Source: a virus. Taken from it: 64,000 nucleotides of DNA. Every line of letters begins with the position of its first letter. Position 1 is the first letter of the stretch. A model generated the notes under the pieces. It saw only the letters and a list, made by a program, of their open reading frames with translations. It did not search any database and had not been told where the DNA came from. The DNA lies in the IMG/VR virus record IMGVR_UViG_3300008113_000015, positions 62,001 to 126,000 of that record. One strand, given 5' to 3'. Below are positions 22,690 to 64,000 of this stretch, in pieces. Position numbers and translations under genes: made by a program.

Positions 22690-22693
22690 CCCG

Positions 22694-22701
22694 TATTTAC
22701 G
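22694..22701 (-). promoter_or_regulatory. Late-type element CGTAAATA in a dyad, 4 nt before ATG
   Basis: The element sits inside a perfect inverted repeat (CCCGT 22690-22694, loop ATTT, ACGGG 22699-22703) directly abutting ATG 22689. No Shine-Dalgarno is present. Confidence 0.5.
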
Positions 22702-29052: not shown

Positions 29053-29056
29053 ACCC

Positions 29057-29064
29057 TATTTATA
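29057..29064 (-). promoter_or_regulatory. Late-type element TATAAATA in a dyad, 4 nt before ATG
   Basis: Perfect T4 late consensus TATAAATA inside an inverted repeat (29053-29068), immediately before ATG 29052 of gp16. Transcription from a T4-type late start site would produce an mRNA with no leader. The sequence AGGG between them is a poor Shine-Dalgarno at that distance. Confidence 0.55.
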
Positions 29065-57908: not shown

Positions 57909-57916
57909 TATTTATG
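57909..57916 (-). promoter_or_regulatory. Late-type element CATAAATA upstream of giant fibre
   Basis: Minus strand CATAAATA, 21 nt before ATG 57887, overlapping the stop of the 205-aa gene; AAGGA lies in the leader. Confidence 0.55.
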
Positions 57917-58529
57917 GTACCACATTGAATGTCGATGAGCTGGGTACAGTAATAGACAATCCGCTAGGGATTGTCAAGGGGCTTACCATCATTGCAGATA
58001 CATTGGCCTGTACTGTAATGTTAGCTGAAAGTGTACGAGGAGTTGCGATTACACCGTTGACAAACAATGATGTTTGACTCACAGTGACTACATTGCCTGT
58101 GCCAGAAATGCCAATGGTCACATTGCCGTTGGCCGTGCCAATAGACACATTGGAGGTACCGTTTACAATGGCCTGACCGTTGCCAGACCCGCCAGAAATA
58201 CCAGTTAGCAAACTACCGTTACCAACAAAATAACCAGCATAGATTGTGTCAAATCGCAAACTGTTGCTGCCAATATCATGCACATTGCTGATATTAGGTA
58301 GTATACTGGCGTTGGCTTGTATTACACCAATGCCATTGGGTTTGAGAACAATGTTGGTATTTGTAGTAGTGGTTGTGATGGTGTTGTTGGCAATTTGTAT
58401 ATTGCTACCAACCGGTCCAGCTGTATAAATTTCAGTGAAATTACTATTGACCGCTTCAAACGCATTGCGCAACGGTTCGCCAGTGCCATCGTTAGCATTT
58501 GCACCAATATCGATTATCTGTTGAGACAT
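57912..58529 (-). CDS. Short fibre/base protein, NDGTGEPLR family
   Basis: A 205-aa protein. IIDIGANANDGTGEPLRNAFE then AVNSNFTEIYT is a widespread motif in phage tail-fibre and adhesin attachment domains. The rest contains the same NGSLLTGI and GNVTIG strands as the giant fibre. It probably adapts or shortens the fibre. AAAGGA precedes ATG 58529, and a GGTAAATA element lies 22 nt upstream. Confidence 0.78.
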   Translation of the reverse strand: MSQQIIDIGANANDGTGEPLRNAFEAVNSNFTEIYTAGPVGSNIQIANNTITTTTTNTNIVLKPNGIGVIQANASILPNISNVHDIGSNSLRFDTIYAGYFVGNGSLLTGISGGSGNGQAIVNGTSNVSIGTANGNVTIGISGTGNVVTVSQTSLFVNGVIATPRTLSANITVQANVSAMMVSPLTIPSGLSITVPSSSTFNVVP

Positions 58530-58551
58530 TACAATCCAAGTCCTTTGGTTG

Positions 58552-58559
58552 TATTTACC
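58552..58559 (-). promoter_or_regulatory. Late-type element GGTAAATA upstream of 205-aa gene
   Basis: Minus strand GGTAAATA, 22 nt before ATG 58529, with AAAGGA in between. Third occurrence of the GGTAAATA form. Confidence 0.6.
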
Positions 58560-58587
58560 AAAAGGTTTAGACTGCTGTTTTGTGGAA

Positions 58588-61500: not shown

Positions 61501-62085
61501 TTACAGATCCTTTGTGTTATTTATTCTGTTCAAGAACTCTGTCATTGGCATGGTTGTGTAGTTAGTGACACTTTCAAATTCTTTCACGTGCACAGTGGTA
61601 TCGCCTATGACCCTTACAAACGGTGTTTTAGCGTGATCGCGCATGACCGTGGCCAGTTGTCTAGCCCAGTTGCCAGTATAGGTGGGCACAGCAGAACTTT
61701 TTTTGTAAAATTCTGAATCAGCATACACATTGTTGAATTTATTGTTTACAGGACCCATATCAAAGCCCACAAGATAGACAATTTTAGCTCGATCAAAGCA
61801 GGCAATGCTGGCAGCAATAGGACCCGAACTGAAGCCATAGTACTTTTGCGGCACACTCAACGCTCCTAGATTTGCTATTGGCCGCCGGGTATAAAATCTA
61901 TGATTTTTAGCATAGCCTTCGGTTTGTATTCTTTCGCTAATAGGACGGTCAGTGCTGACTAGTACTGTGGGCACAAAGTCCCTATAGAGAGCGTTGCAGC
62001 CATAGATATTGCCCATGTGACGCAGGTTGTTGAGATCTACCTGCTGTCTACTTACTCCATTACCTAATACAAATGCTGCGGTCAT
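61501..62085 (-). CDS. Unrecognised 194-aa protein with LGNGVSR motif
   Basis: A 194-aa protein MTAAFVLGNGVSRQQVDLNNL..., then IYGCNALYRDFVPTVLVSTD and AKIVYLVGFDMG. The start VLGNGxSR plus GCNALYRDF recurs in phage proteins and resembles nucleotide-sugar binding starts of sialyltransferase- or DUF115-like glycosyltransferases; the match is only partial. It lies inside the fibre gene run, so modification of fibres is a possibility. Its AGGAGG ribosome site is part of a terminator-like hairpin. Confidence 0.62.
   Translation of the reverse strand: MTAAFVLGNGVSRQQVDLNNLRHMGNIYGCNALYRDFVPTVLVSTDRPISERIQTEGYAKNHRFYTRRPIANLGALSVPQKYYGFSSGPIAASIACFDRAKIVYLVGFDMGPVNNKFNNVYADSEFYKKSSAVPTYTGNWARQLATVMRDHAKTPFVRVIGDTTVHVKEFESVTNYTTMPMTEFLNRINNTKDL
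61519..61526 (-). promoter_or_regulatory. Late-type element AATAAATA upstream of 958-aa fibre
   Basis: Minus strand AATAAATA inside the end of the 61501 gene, 18 nt before ATG 61500; AAGGATC in the leader serves as ribosome site. Confidence 0.55.
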
Positions 62086-62090
62086 AAAAA

Positions 62091-62117
62091 ATCCTCCTAG
62101 TAGTTATCTAGGAGGAT
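62091..62117 (-). terminator. Terminator-like hairpin that contains the next gene's ribosome site
   Basis: A perfect 10-bp stem (ATCCTCCTAG 62091-62100 with CTAGGAGGAT 62108-62117), 7-nt loop, followed on the minus strand by five further T. It has the form of an intrinsic terminator, but the 3' arm carries AGGAGG (62093-62098), placed 7 nt before ATG 62085. When folded it would hide the ribosome site and might stop transcription; both effects would lower the 61501 gene. Confidence 0.8.
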
Positions 62118-62134
62118 CCTGGAGTTACACCAAA

Positions 62135-62887
62135 TTAGGAGGTAACGTTGTCTACCAAAGCCAGATTGACAGTGGTTTGAGCAGTACCAGACTTGATTAC
62201 TGTGCCTTCGTCTGTGAAGAAGTTGGCAACGTAACGAACATCGTTAGTAACTTCAGATTGAGTAAATCCTGAACCGCCAGTGAAGTCCAACAAGAATTTG
62301 TTGGTTAGCTTGCTGATTGGGGTAGCAGTAGAGTCACCTGTGGCTTCTGTGAATGTAATGCACATTAGACCAGCTGCTGGTGTTGTGTCATTGTCCAGTA
62401 CACAGACCCCAACACTGTAGGCAGAACCATTGCCGCCACCGTCGGCACCAGTTGCTGTGAAAATTCCGCCTACTGCAAGGTCAGCTTCTGCACCAATTGA
62501 TTGCCAATTGGTGGTGCCTAACGCAGCAACTTGATATGCTTGTCCAACCACAAAACTGCCGTCGTTAACGCCTGTGACATCGCCAACTAGATATTTGCGG
62601 GAACCTTTCTGACGAATGACGTAGCCTTGAGCTACACCTATACCTGAGCCCGAAGGATCAGCAATGTTAACAATTACATCAACACGAGGAAATGTAGCAC
62701 TAGGGGTGTCTGTAGGTGTTGCTCCGCCGACCACGCCCAAGAATTGGGTAGAATTCAGTGTGTCGGATGAATTGACCACAGGATTGGTCAGGCTTGCGAA
62801 ATTTGGAAAACCAAGGTCAACACTGACGCTAGCGCCGCCGTTGCCTGAACCAGTGGAAATTTTTTGTATTTTTAGAGGACGTCCCAT
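62135..62887 (-). CDS. Virion structural protein, MGRPLKI type
   Basis: A 250-aa protein starting MGRPLKIQKISTGSGNGG. It has beta-rich GVVGGATPTDTPSATFPRVD and a central segment VGQAYQVAALGTTNWQSIGA followed by GGIFTATGADGGGNG, a short module common in phage virion and adhesin proteins. The end is CITFTEATGDST, DFTGGSGFTQSEV. Likely part of the tail or fibre base. AAGGAG precedes ATG 62887, but the nearest late element is 91 nt upstream, giving an unusually long leader with a possible short reading frame. Confidence 0.72.
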   Translation of the reverse strand: MGRPLKIQKISTGSGNGGASVSVDLGFPNFASLTNPVVNSSDTLNSTQFLGVVGGATPTDTPSATFPRVDVIVNIADPSGSGIGVAQGYVIRQKGSRKYLVGDVTGVNDGSFVVGQAYQVAALGTTNWQSIGAEADLAVGGIFTATGADGGGNGSAYSVGVCVLDNDTTPAAGLMCITFTEATGDSTATPISKLTNKFLLDFTGGSGFTQSEVTNDVRYVANFFTDEGTVIKSGTAQTTVNLALVDNVTS

Positions 62888-62927
62888 TTGTTTTCTCCTT
62901 AAAGAAGTCCGATGTGGGTTCTAGCCA

Positions 62928-62954
62928 CTACGCGGTGGGTTTAAAGTACCGCAT
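62928..62954 (-). other. Candidate 8-residue leader peptide
   Basis: In the leader of the 62135 gene, ATG CGG TAC TTT AAA CCC ACC GCG TAG would encode MRYFKPTA. Nearby short inverted repeats (CCAC...GTGG; GCGGT...ACCGC) overlap it. No strong ribosome site precedes it. It may be a chance frame or a translation-coupled control element. Confidence 0.25.
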
Positions 62955-62978
62955 AAAACACCGTATTGTGTTGACAAG

Positions 62979-62986
62979 TATTTATA
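62979..62986 (-). promoter_or_regulatory. Late promoter TATAAATA
   Basis: Exact late consensus on the minus strand, 91 nt before ATG 62887. It begins the fibre-side unit and overlaps the divergent region of the plus-strand gene at 63027. Confidence 0.65.
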
Positions 62987-63013
62987 GAAATAGCAGATAT
63001 ACCTCAAGTTGCC

Positions 63014-63021
63014 ATTAAATA
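63014..63021 (+). promoter_or_regulatory. Late-type element ATTAAATA, 5 nt before ATG
   Basis: ATTAAATA then TCCAC then ATG 63027, without a Shine-Dalgarno. Close-spaced class. Confidence 0.45.
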
Positions 63022-63026
63022 TCCAC

Positions 63027-64000
63027 ATGAACCCCAACGAACTTATTGAAACTGGAAACCAATTTAGATCCAAAAACCAACCCGAACAAGCATTAAGTTG
63101 CTATGCGCAGGCCTTTGTTCAAGATCGACACTATGCCGCTGCATTCAACAACTACGGCAATGTACTGCGAGAAGTTGGAGAACCAGAAAATGCCGTTCCG
63201 TTTTTACAACGTGCAATACAGTTGGATCCTAATAACATCACTGCCAAATTTAATCTAGCCATTGCTTATTTGTTGGCTGGAGATTACAAACAAGGATGGC
63301 CCGCCTATGAACATCGCTGGGACTACGAGCACCTAGCAGGAACCATGCCGCCATTTACTAAACCAAGATGGCGTGGAGAAGATCTTCGAGGTAAAACTAT
63401 TCTAGTTGTAGGCGAACAAGGCCATGGGGACAATATTCAGTTTGTGAGGTTTTTATACAACCTGCATGTGATGGGTGCAGAGATTATACTGCAAGTAACT
63501 GACGGGCTGATTCCGTTATTGAAATCCAGTGCCATACTAAAACGAGTCACAGGATACGATTACAGCATTGACGATTTTGATGTTTGGACTCCCATAATGA
63601 GTATTCCCGGACTGCTAGGGGTGGACTTGTCTAACTTACCTCGTCCTGTGAACTATCTCAACGCAGATGCTGGGCTACAAAAACAGTGGCTTGCTTACTT
63701 TGGTCCAAAAACAAAAATGCGAGTAGGATTCAGTTGGAGTGGTCGTCGAGACAACTGGTTGAATCGTCACAAAGGCATGCCATTTGATCAAATGATGGAA
63801 TTGATCAAATCAAATCCTCAATACGAATGGATTAACTTGCAGGCAGACTGTACTCCAGAAGAAGAGATGCAGCTCAAACAAGCAGGCGCACATTGTTTGC
63901 CGCCTAATCCAAACATGTGGGCTGACACCGCTGCTCAGATGATGAGCATGGATGTAATTGTCAGCGTCGATACTGCTGTGGCCCATTTGGCTGCGGCCCT
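63027..64000 (+). CDS. TPR-repeat glycosyltransferase-like protein (cut by window edge)
   Basis: About 324 residues are visible. Residues 1-90 are TPR repeats (NQFRSKNQPEQALSCYAQAF; YAAAFNNYGNVLREVGEPENA; NITAKFNLAIAYLLAGDYKQG). Then the linker WPAYEHRWDYEHLAG, WRGEDLRGKTILVVGEQGHG, FVRFLYNLHVMG and, at the window edge, IVSVDTAVAHLAAAL. These belong to TPR-linked GT9/GT41-like transferases, where the DTAxAHLAAA motif lines the donor site. Acceptor unknown; with the left-end island it points to substantial glycan modification. Confidence 0.82.
   Translation, partial: MNPNELIETGNQFRSKNQPEQALSCYAQAFVQDRHYAAAFNNYGNVLREVGEPENAVPFLQRAIQLDPNNITAKFNLAIAYLLAGDYKQGWPAYEHRWDYEHLAGTMPPFTKPRWRGEDLRGKTILVVGEQGHGDNIQFVRFLYNLHVMGAEIILQVTDGLIPLLKSSAILKRVTGYDYSIDDFDVWTPIMSIPGLLGVDLSNLPRPVNYLNADAGLQKQWLAYFGPKTKMRVGFSWSGRRDNWLNRHKGMPFDQMMELIKSNPQYEWINLQADCTPEEEMQLKQAGAHCLPPNPNMWADTAAQMMSMDVIVSVDTAVAHLAAA

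Follow-up and report, generated by a model that had tools for sequence, protein, structure and literature searches.

A conserved hairpin with a late promoter-like loop, predicted to bury the ribosome-binding site of the LGNGVSR gene in freshwater T4-like phages

How is a gene expressed when the hairpin in front of it resembles an intrinsic terminator and also takes the gene's Shine-Dalgarno sequence (SD) into its stem? The question is raised by two genes on the minus strand of the DNA considered here, a stretch of 64,000 nucleotides ("the window") taken from a virus record of 127.6 kb that encodes a T4-type tail sheath. The upstream gene is designated gene A, the downstream one the LGNGVSR gene, and the locus is laid out as follows.

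62979..62986 (62986-62979), minus strand: late promoter TATAAATA of gene A, from the sequence and its relatives
62885..62973, minus strand: freshwater-2 RNA (RF02980), the leader of gene A (Rfam match, 71.8 bits)
62135..62887 (62887-62135), minus strand: gene A, a late open reading frame of 250 aa upstream of the hairpin
61501..62085 (62085-61501), minus strand: LGNGVSR gene, an open reading frame of 194 aa (phrog_4603; predicted structure)
61518..61525 (61525-61518), minus strand: fibre-gene late promoter AATAAATA, lying within the 3' end of LGNGVSR

Gene A opens a leftward unit in the window and is itself late; at its promoter position, 91 of 93 distinct relatives have TAAATA preceded by CA, GC, TA or AC. 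The Rfam model of freshwater-2 begins, in the window, 6 nt after the TAAATA core, which is the predicted transcription start of gene A, and of 14 related loci 13 have the RNA, in most cases spaced equally or almost equally from the promoter core. (A side note on this RNA, which in T4-like freshwater phages forms the 5' leader of a late gene: the loci are L271, L091, L089, L219, L103, L030, L235, L226, L109, L114, L260, L031 and L228.) The gene A protein matches no PHROG or Pfam family. Its promoter is adjoined by a divergent gene on the plus strand (63009-63998), whose product has N-terminal TPR repeats.

The LGNGVSR protein has nothing in Pfam and a weak match to a PHROG alpha-2,3-sialyltransferase; the four best PDB matches of its predicted structure (pLDDT 86) are the GT42 sialyltransferases Cst-II and Cst-I (E 3e-4 to 9e-4, TM 0.54-0.57, 12% identity), and a GT42 sialyltransferase-like fold is predicted for it. 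The bacterial and archaeal genome collection yielded no relative with the query used. The late promoter of the fibre gene is written into the LGNGVSR coding sequence: nearly all relatives in which this 3' end persists have kept the codons ATA AAT of ATAAATA. (The synonymous positions, I = ATA and N = AAT, are fixed in nearly all relatives; several relatives with a different 3' end are without the fibre promoter.)

The hairpin between gene A and the LGNGVSR gene has the order AGG-ATCCTCCTAG-ATAACTA-CTAGGAGGAT-TTTTT-ATG on the minus strand. Its parts are these.

62108..62117 (62117-62108), minus strand: 5' arm ATCCTCCTAG (sequence, fold, covariation)
62101..62107 (62107-62101), minus strand: loop ATAACTA, 7 nt, with TAACTA one step off TAAATA
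62091..62100 (62100-62091), minus strand: 3' arm CTAGGAGGAT, which holds the SD AGGAGG (paired in predicted folds)
62098-62093, minus strand: SD AGGAGG, 7 nt before the ATG
62095, minus strand: predicted transcription start of the putative loop promoter (RNA AGGAUUUUUUAUG...)
62086..62091, minus strand: run of 6 T between stem and ATG, its first T pairing with A 62117
62090-62086, minus strand: T run beyond the 10-bp stem, abutting the ATG
62085-62083, minus strand: start codon ATG of the LGNGVSR gene

The stem of 10 bp (62117-62108 with 62100-62091), the T run and, 7 nt ahead of the ATG at 62085, an AGGAGG within the 3' arm are all present just as a first-pass annotation of this DNA had described them. 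There is a single occurrence of TCCTCCTA...TAGGAGGA in the window, as compared with 0.00 expected in shuffles. RNAfold assigns -27.3 kcal/mol to 62060-62160 (z = -2.63, with 4 of 200 shuffles equally good), and the predicted fold is dominated by the SD-masking hairpin, for which no Rfam family match was found.

Is the structure peculiar to one sequence? Relatives of the LGNGVSR gene were sought in IMG/VR, with matches in hundreds of contigs, and the set of upstream regions comprised 85 distinct sequences at first and 138 after a distant search (about 275 loci). The SD is paired in the minimum-energy fold of every one of these 138 distinct related upstreams; gene A lies upstream of the hairpin at all 273 of the 273 loci that could be judged; and in relatives with a readable upstream region the hairpin ends at the start codon, the homologues in Pelagibacter phages excepted. 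(In contig L292 an extra ATG lies 3' of the hairpin and the start is shifted.) The LGNGVSR homologues of Pelagibacter phages HTVC008M and Mosig stand in a different neighbourhood and have no hairpin, and three homologous places in Pelagibacter phages are without gene A as well as without the hairpin.

The two arms have changed together. A MAFFT alignment of 61 distinct sequences has 97.2% of its cells paired and double changes (that is, on both sides) in 6 of the 10 stem pairs; double-change cells number 49, as compared with 13.1 +/- 2.9 in shuffles (0/500), and slid controls give far lower values. A second set of 41, made up of the window sequence and mostly more distant relatives (one subclade being register-shifted), has 47 double-change cells where 17 are expected (0/500). 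Swapping flanks between lineages, a test that dispenses with alignment, raises the folding energy from -18.6 kcal/mol with own flanks to -13.8 (the best of 2000 permutations reaching -14.6). The letters of the SD themselves vary among relatives (GGAGGA, GGGGGA, GTGGGGA, also GGGGA) and the opposite arm changes to match: exact AGGAGG is not the conserved feature, and the pairing partner arm tracks the SD variants. The structure also keeps to its place. One exact form of it, 25 bases long, searched as DNA against 2.9 million viral contigs, has 14 matches, all directly before the LGNGVSR gene, and each of 13 phage records contains a single strong match to a covariance model.

(Weak matches to the covariance model were examined and rejected: those in records G003 and G004 are plain terminators, the latter after a porin-like gene, and the one in G002 is a TAAATA-containing hairpin whose nearby ATG is not the start of a long frame. 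As a separate observation, record G004, which is viral and 286 kb long, has at L193 133-1023 a gene for a porin-like outer membrane protein, with a strong terminator after it.)

The hairpin is no accident, because the SD is paired in all 138 sequences and compensatory changes are plentiful; at the level of sequence comparison, this shows that it is maintained by selection in freshwater T4-like phages. The first-pass annotation had proposed looking for the stem in relatives, and would have given up its reading had the stem not been conserved; on that point the comparison bears it out.

What of termination? The G+C-rich stem of 10 bp is followed directly by 5 U, as in intrinsic terminators, and its d'Aubenton-Carafa-type index of +23 falls within the 20 to 39 spanned by four canonical terminators from these phages. 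The loop is a conserved 7 nt and not the short one, typically of 4 nt, of intrinsic terminators, although termination does not strictly depend on a short loop; with just 5 U after the 10-bp stem, the base of which can extend into them, the predicted U run is short. The T run is retained in nearly all relatives, with single breaks in a few (TTTTCT, TTTCTT, TATTTT). Of 401 genes in four genomes, only 6 have five or more T among the 7 nt that precede the ATG, and 4 of these 6 are the LGNGVSR gene. Other terminators in the four genomes are without a TAnnTA loop, their loops differing and many being of 3-5 nt. In relatives, the SD of the LGNGVSR gene ranks among the strongest 5% of genes in the four genomes. 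The first-pass interpretation, that one structure couples termination to a block of translation, is thus partly supported: the terminator-like stem, the U run and the SD in the 3' arm are conserved, while termination and SD masking in the cell, like the promoter activity of the loop that is considered next, are what we infer from these features. A lowered output of the LGNGVSR protein would be a consequence, and the abundant virion protein that the annotation saw encoded upstream is a putative one, matching no PHROG or Pfam family.

The earlier annotation did not remark on the loop, which is nearly invariant and late promoter-like, and which makes the hairpin resemble the device of T4 genes e, soc and 49. 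A loop hexamer TAnnTA stands at the expected distance from the ATG in 137 of the 138 distinct sequences (the exception, L030, also has a UACAUA loop, farther from the ATG). TACATA accounts for 83 of the 137, TAACTA for 18, TAAGTA for 15, TAATTA for 12, TAAATA for 7 and TATATA for 2, so that nn is CA, AC, AG, AT, AA or TA, at most one change from TAAATA, and the exact TAAATA loop is carried by seven distinct sequences. In these phages TAAATA forms the core of late promoters: 88 copies lie upstream of genes as compared with 5.5 expected, a 16-fold enrichment. Of 10 related records, 8 encode a gp55-type late sigma factor (phrog_234, at about 1e-24); the search gave none in the 127.6-kb record of the window itself, possibly a fragment.

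Where would transcription from the loop begin? The predicted start at 62095, placed by the distance from promoter core to freshwater-2 at gene A (about 6 nt downstream), lies in the window ten nt before the ATG, and nearly all relatives have AGGA or GGGA there (AGGAU or GGGAU, or AGGAC/GGGAC). Such a start would trim AGGAGG to AGGA and leave a leader of just 10 nt; when the predicted RNA is folded alone, AGGA is unpaired. Most loops deviate from the exact late promoter, and a strong late promoter in the loop was ruled out for most clades, TAAATA being found in 0 of the first 85 sequences and almost always in the neighbouring promoters. A weak promoter came back into consideration because distant relatives carry the exact TAAATA; in T4, late promoters that deviate at a single position are known to occur, and they are used in vitro (PMC2988020). 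The loop looks like the carrier of a weak late promoter-like start signal for the downstream gene. (A technical note: enrichment of variant hexamers upstream of genes was set aside as promoter evidence because TAA stop codons and sigma70-type boxes confound it.)

A second hairpin in the window has a similar design, in front of a gene of the baseplate wedge/fibre connector family (57912-58529).

58540..58565 (58565-58540), minus strand: second hairpin, before gene 57912-58529 (fold, swap test)
58557-58552, minus strand: TAAATA in the loop of the second hairpin; the SD AAAGGA is in the 3' arm

TAAATA is present in 65 of 66 distinct regions upstream of this gene, and in most of them a hairpin is predicted that has this hexamer in its loop and the SD in its 3' arm. 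RNAalifold gives no signal for this hairpin, because the sequences differ by insertions, and the alignment-free swap was therefore applied: self-folding gives -11.8 kcal/mol as compared with -9.0 after swapping, beyond all 2000 permutations. The second hairpin has no U run. The promoter-in-loop design thus recurs, since gene 57912-58529 too has a covarying SD-masking hairpin with a TAAATA loop. It is not a genome-wide rule: 51 late promoters in four genomes have no general tendency to lie in hairpins (mean z -0.35), and the design is therefore specific to a few genes.

(An observation apart from the hairpins concerns the placement of TAAATA generally. Its distances to the ATG fall into two main classes, of about 22-31 nt and 10-13 nt; 31 of the 88 copies lie at -13, -11 or -10, with the predicted RNA start at or next to the ATG, suggesting, as far as spacing goes, that the short-distance class gives leaderless late mRNAs. 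Examples are at 22690-22699 and 29053-29062, minus strand, in the window; other genes in G000, G007, G010 and G011 have the same arrangement.)

On balance we take the hairpin to be a compact insulator between two late genes, which would terminate transcription, silence what reads through and carry a weak late promoter. Comparison establishes the anatomy and its conservation (the predicted burial of the SD, the covariation, the U run, the loop motif); the sequence of events would be as follows. RNA from the strong late promoter of gene A would fold into the hairpin, and stem and U run would make part of the polymerases terminate. In the RNAs that are extended, the SD of the LGNGVSR gene would be buried in the stem and read-through transcripts would be poorly translated. 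The DNA of the loop, in turn, would supply a promoter hexamer for late transcription, either TAAATA or one change away from it (TAACTA in the window), from which RNA would begin about 6 nt downstream at AGGAUUUUUUAUG; because this RNA lacks the 5' arm it could not form the hairpin, and it would be translatable. Output of the LGNGVSR gene would in this way be uncoupled from gene A and set by its own weak promoter. Since gene A is first in its leftward unit and is itself late, it is unlikely that the hairpin silences early RNA arriving from upstream on that strand, and insulation or dosage is a likelier purpose than an early-to-late switch. That a single hairpin of 27 bp at once ends transcription of the upstream late unit, locks translation of read-through RNA and supplies the next gene with its late promoter, and that selection keeps this promoter sub-consensus, is a more tentative proposition, quite possible though short of probable.

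Would less suffice? The reading offered by the first-pass annotation needs only an attenuator, a leaky intrinsic terminator plus SD mask that fixes a low output from the upstream promoter, with a loop that is devoid of promoter activity and conserved for another reason, e.g. loop structure. Conservation of stem, U run and SD burial agrees with it, as does a terminator score resembling those of canonical terminators, and attenuation would hit the LGNGVSR gene alone because the fibre gene has its own late promoter within the LGNGVSR 3' end. It is nevertheless rather unlikely: terminators need no conserved loop and the other terminators of these phages differ in theirs, while here TA..TA is kept in 137 of 138 sequences, with a middle no more than one step from AA and seven exact copies of TAAATA. 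One may equally discard termination and keep the rest, a plain device of the T4 gene e/soc/49 type in which the SD is masked, the loop is a promoter and the U run is an unstructured spacer. Gene 57912-58529 has just such a form and no U run, and T4 gene 49, laid out similarly, has TTTATT as its spacer; the retention of the U run in nearly all sequences, rare as it is before an ATG (6/401 genes), makes this simpler device improbable here.

The loop might also act as RNA, a UAnnUA that a protein binds or a nuclease cuts so as to open or lock the SD. T4 gp43 does bind an operator hairpin with a UAAC loop (PMC3014915), and a conserved loop is what a translational operator or processing site calls for. 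The variation that the loop allows, however, tracks the late promoter core and not a fixed RNA loop, the hairpin of gene 57912-58529 shares the promoter motif despite its different stem, and no such binder has been identified; we consider this account very improbable. As for a chance palindrome with no role, it has in its favour nothing beyond the fact that single sequences often fold, and compensatory changes across 138 distinct sequences contradict it so directly that its likelihood is negligible.

If the insulator is what it appears to be, the mechanism of T4 genes e, soc and 49 extends to a widespread, uncultured group of freshwater T4-like phages. Were the loop promoter real, the merger of terminator, translational lock and promoter in 27 bp would make this a very small natural insulator, allowing a minor enzyme, encoded amid late structural genes, a dosage of its own; and the loop variants would constitute a natural series of weakened late promoters whose strengths are directly measurable.

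How does the arrangement compare with known ones? Rfam RF02980, freshwater-2, is likewise a conserved cis element of the gene A/LGNGVSR unit, but is a different element, about 770 nt upstream of the hairpin. With the intrinsic (rho-independent) terminators of T4-like phages the hairpin has in common its G+C-rich stem, the U run directly after it and the range of its score; it differs in its conserved 7-nt loop, as against the usual 4-nt loop (PMC2988022), in the SD within its 3' arm and in a U run that abuts the start codon. The mobE gene of T-even phages and Aeh1 comes with a weak terminator, a hairpin at the ribosome-binding site and a separate promoter for the next gene (PMC2988022). There, as would be the case here, a weak terminator and an SD-masking hairpin limit an intercalated gene, and in both the following gene has its own promoter; in the case of mobE, a homing endonuclease gene, terminator and hairpin are separate, whereas the present hairpin combines the two features in front of a GT42-like gene.

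The closest likeness is to T4 genes e, soc, 49 and I-TevI (also segB, and mobE of Aeh1), in which a late promoter overlaps a hairpin that masks the ribosome site (PMC3014915, PMC2988022); T4 gene 49, which reads AATAAATACCCTTATCTATTTAAGGTAAGGGTTTATTATG, folds with its SD in the stem. As in these genes, read-through RNA is predicted to form a stable hairpin that takes up the SD in its 3' arm; their T4-type late promoter is so placed that its own RNA lacks the 5' arm, as would be the case for the candidate promoter here. The differences are several: the promoter hexamer is in the loop here and at the outer edge of the 5' arm there; it is usually one step off consensus here; the U run makes this hairpin terminator-like as well; and the upstream gene A is itself late and first in its leftward unit. 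The best reading, in our opinion, is that the hairpin represents the mechanism of T4 e, soc, 49 and I-TevI with a putative terminator merged into it.
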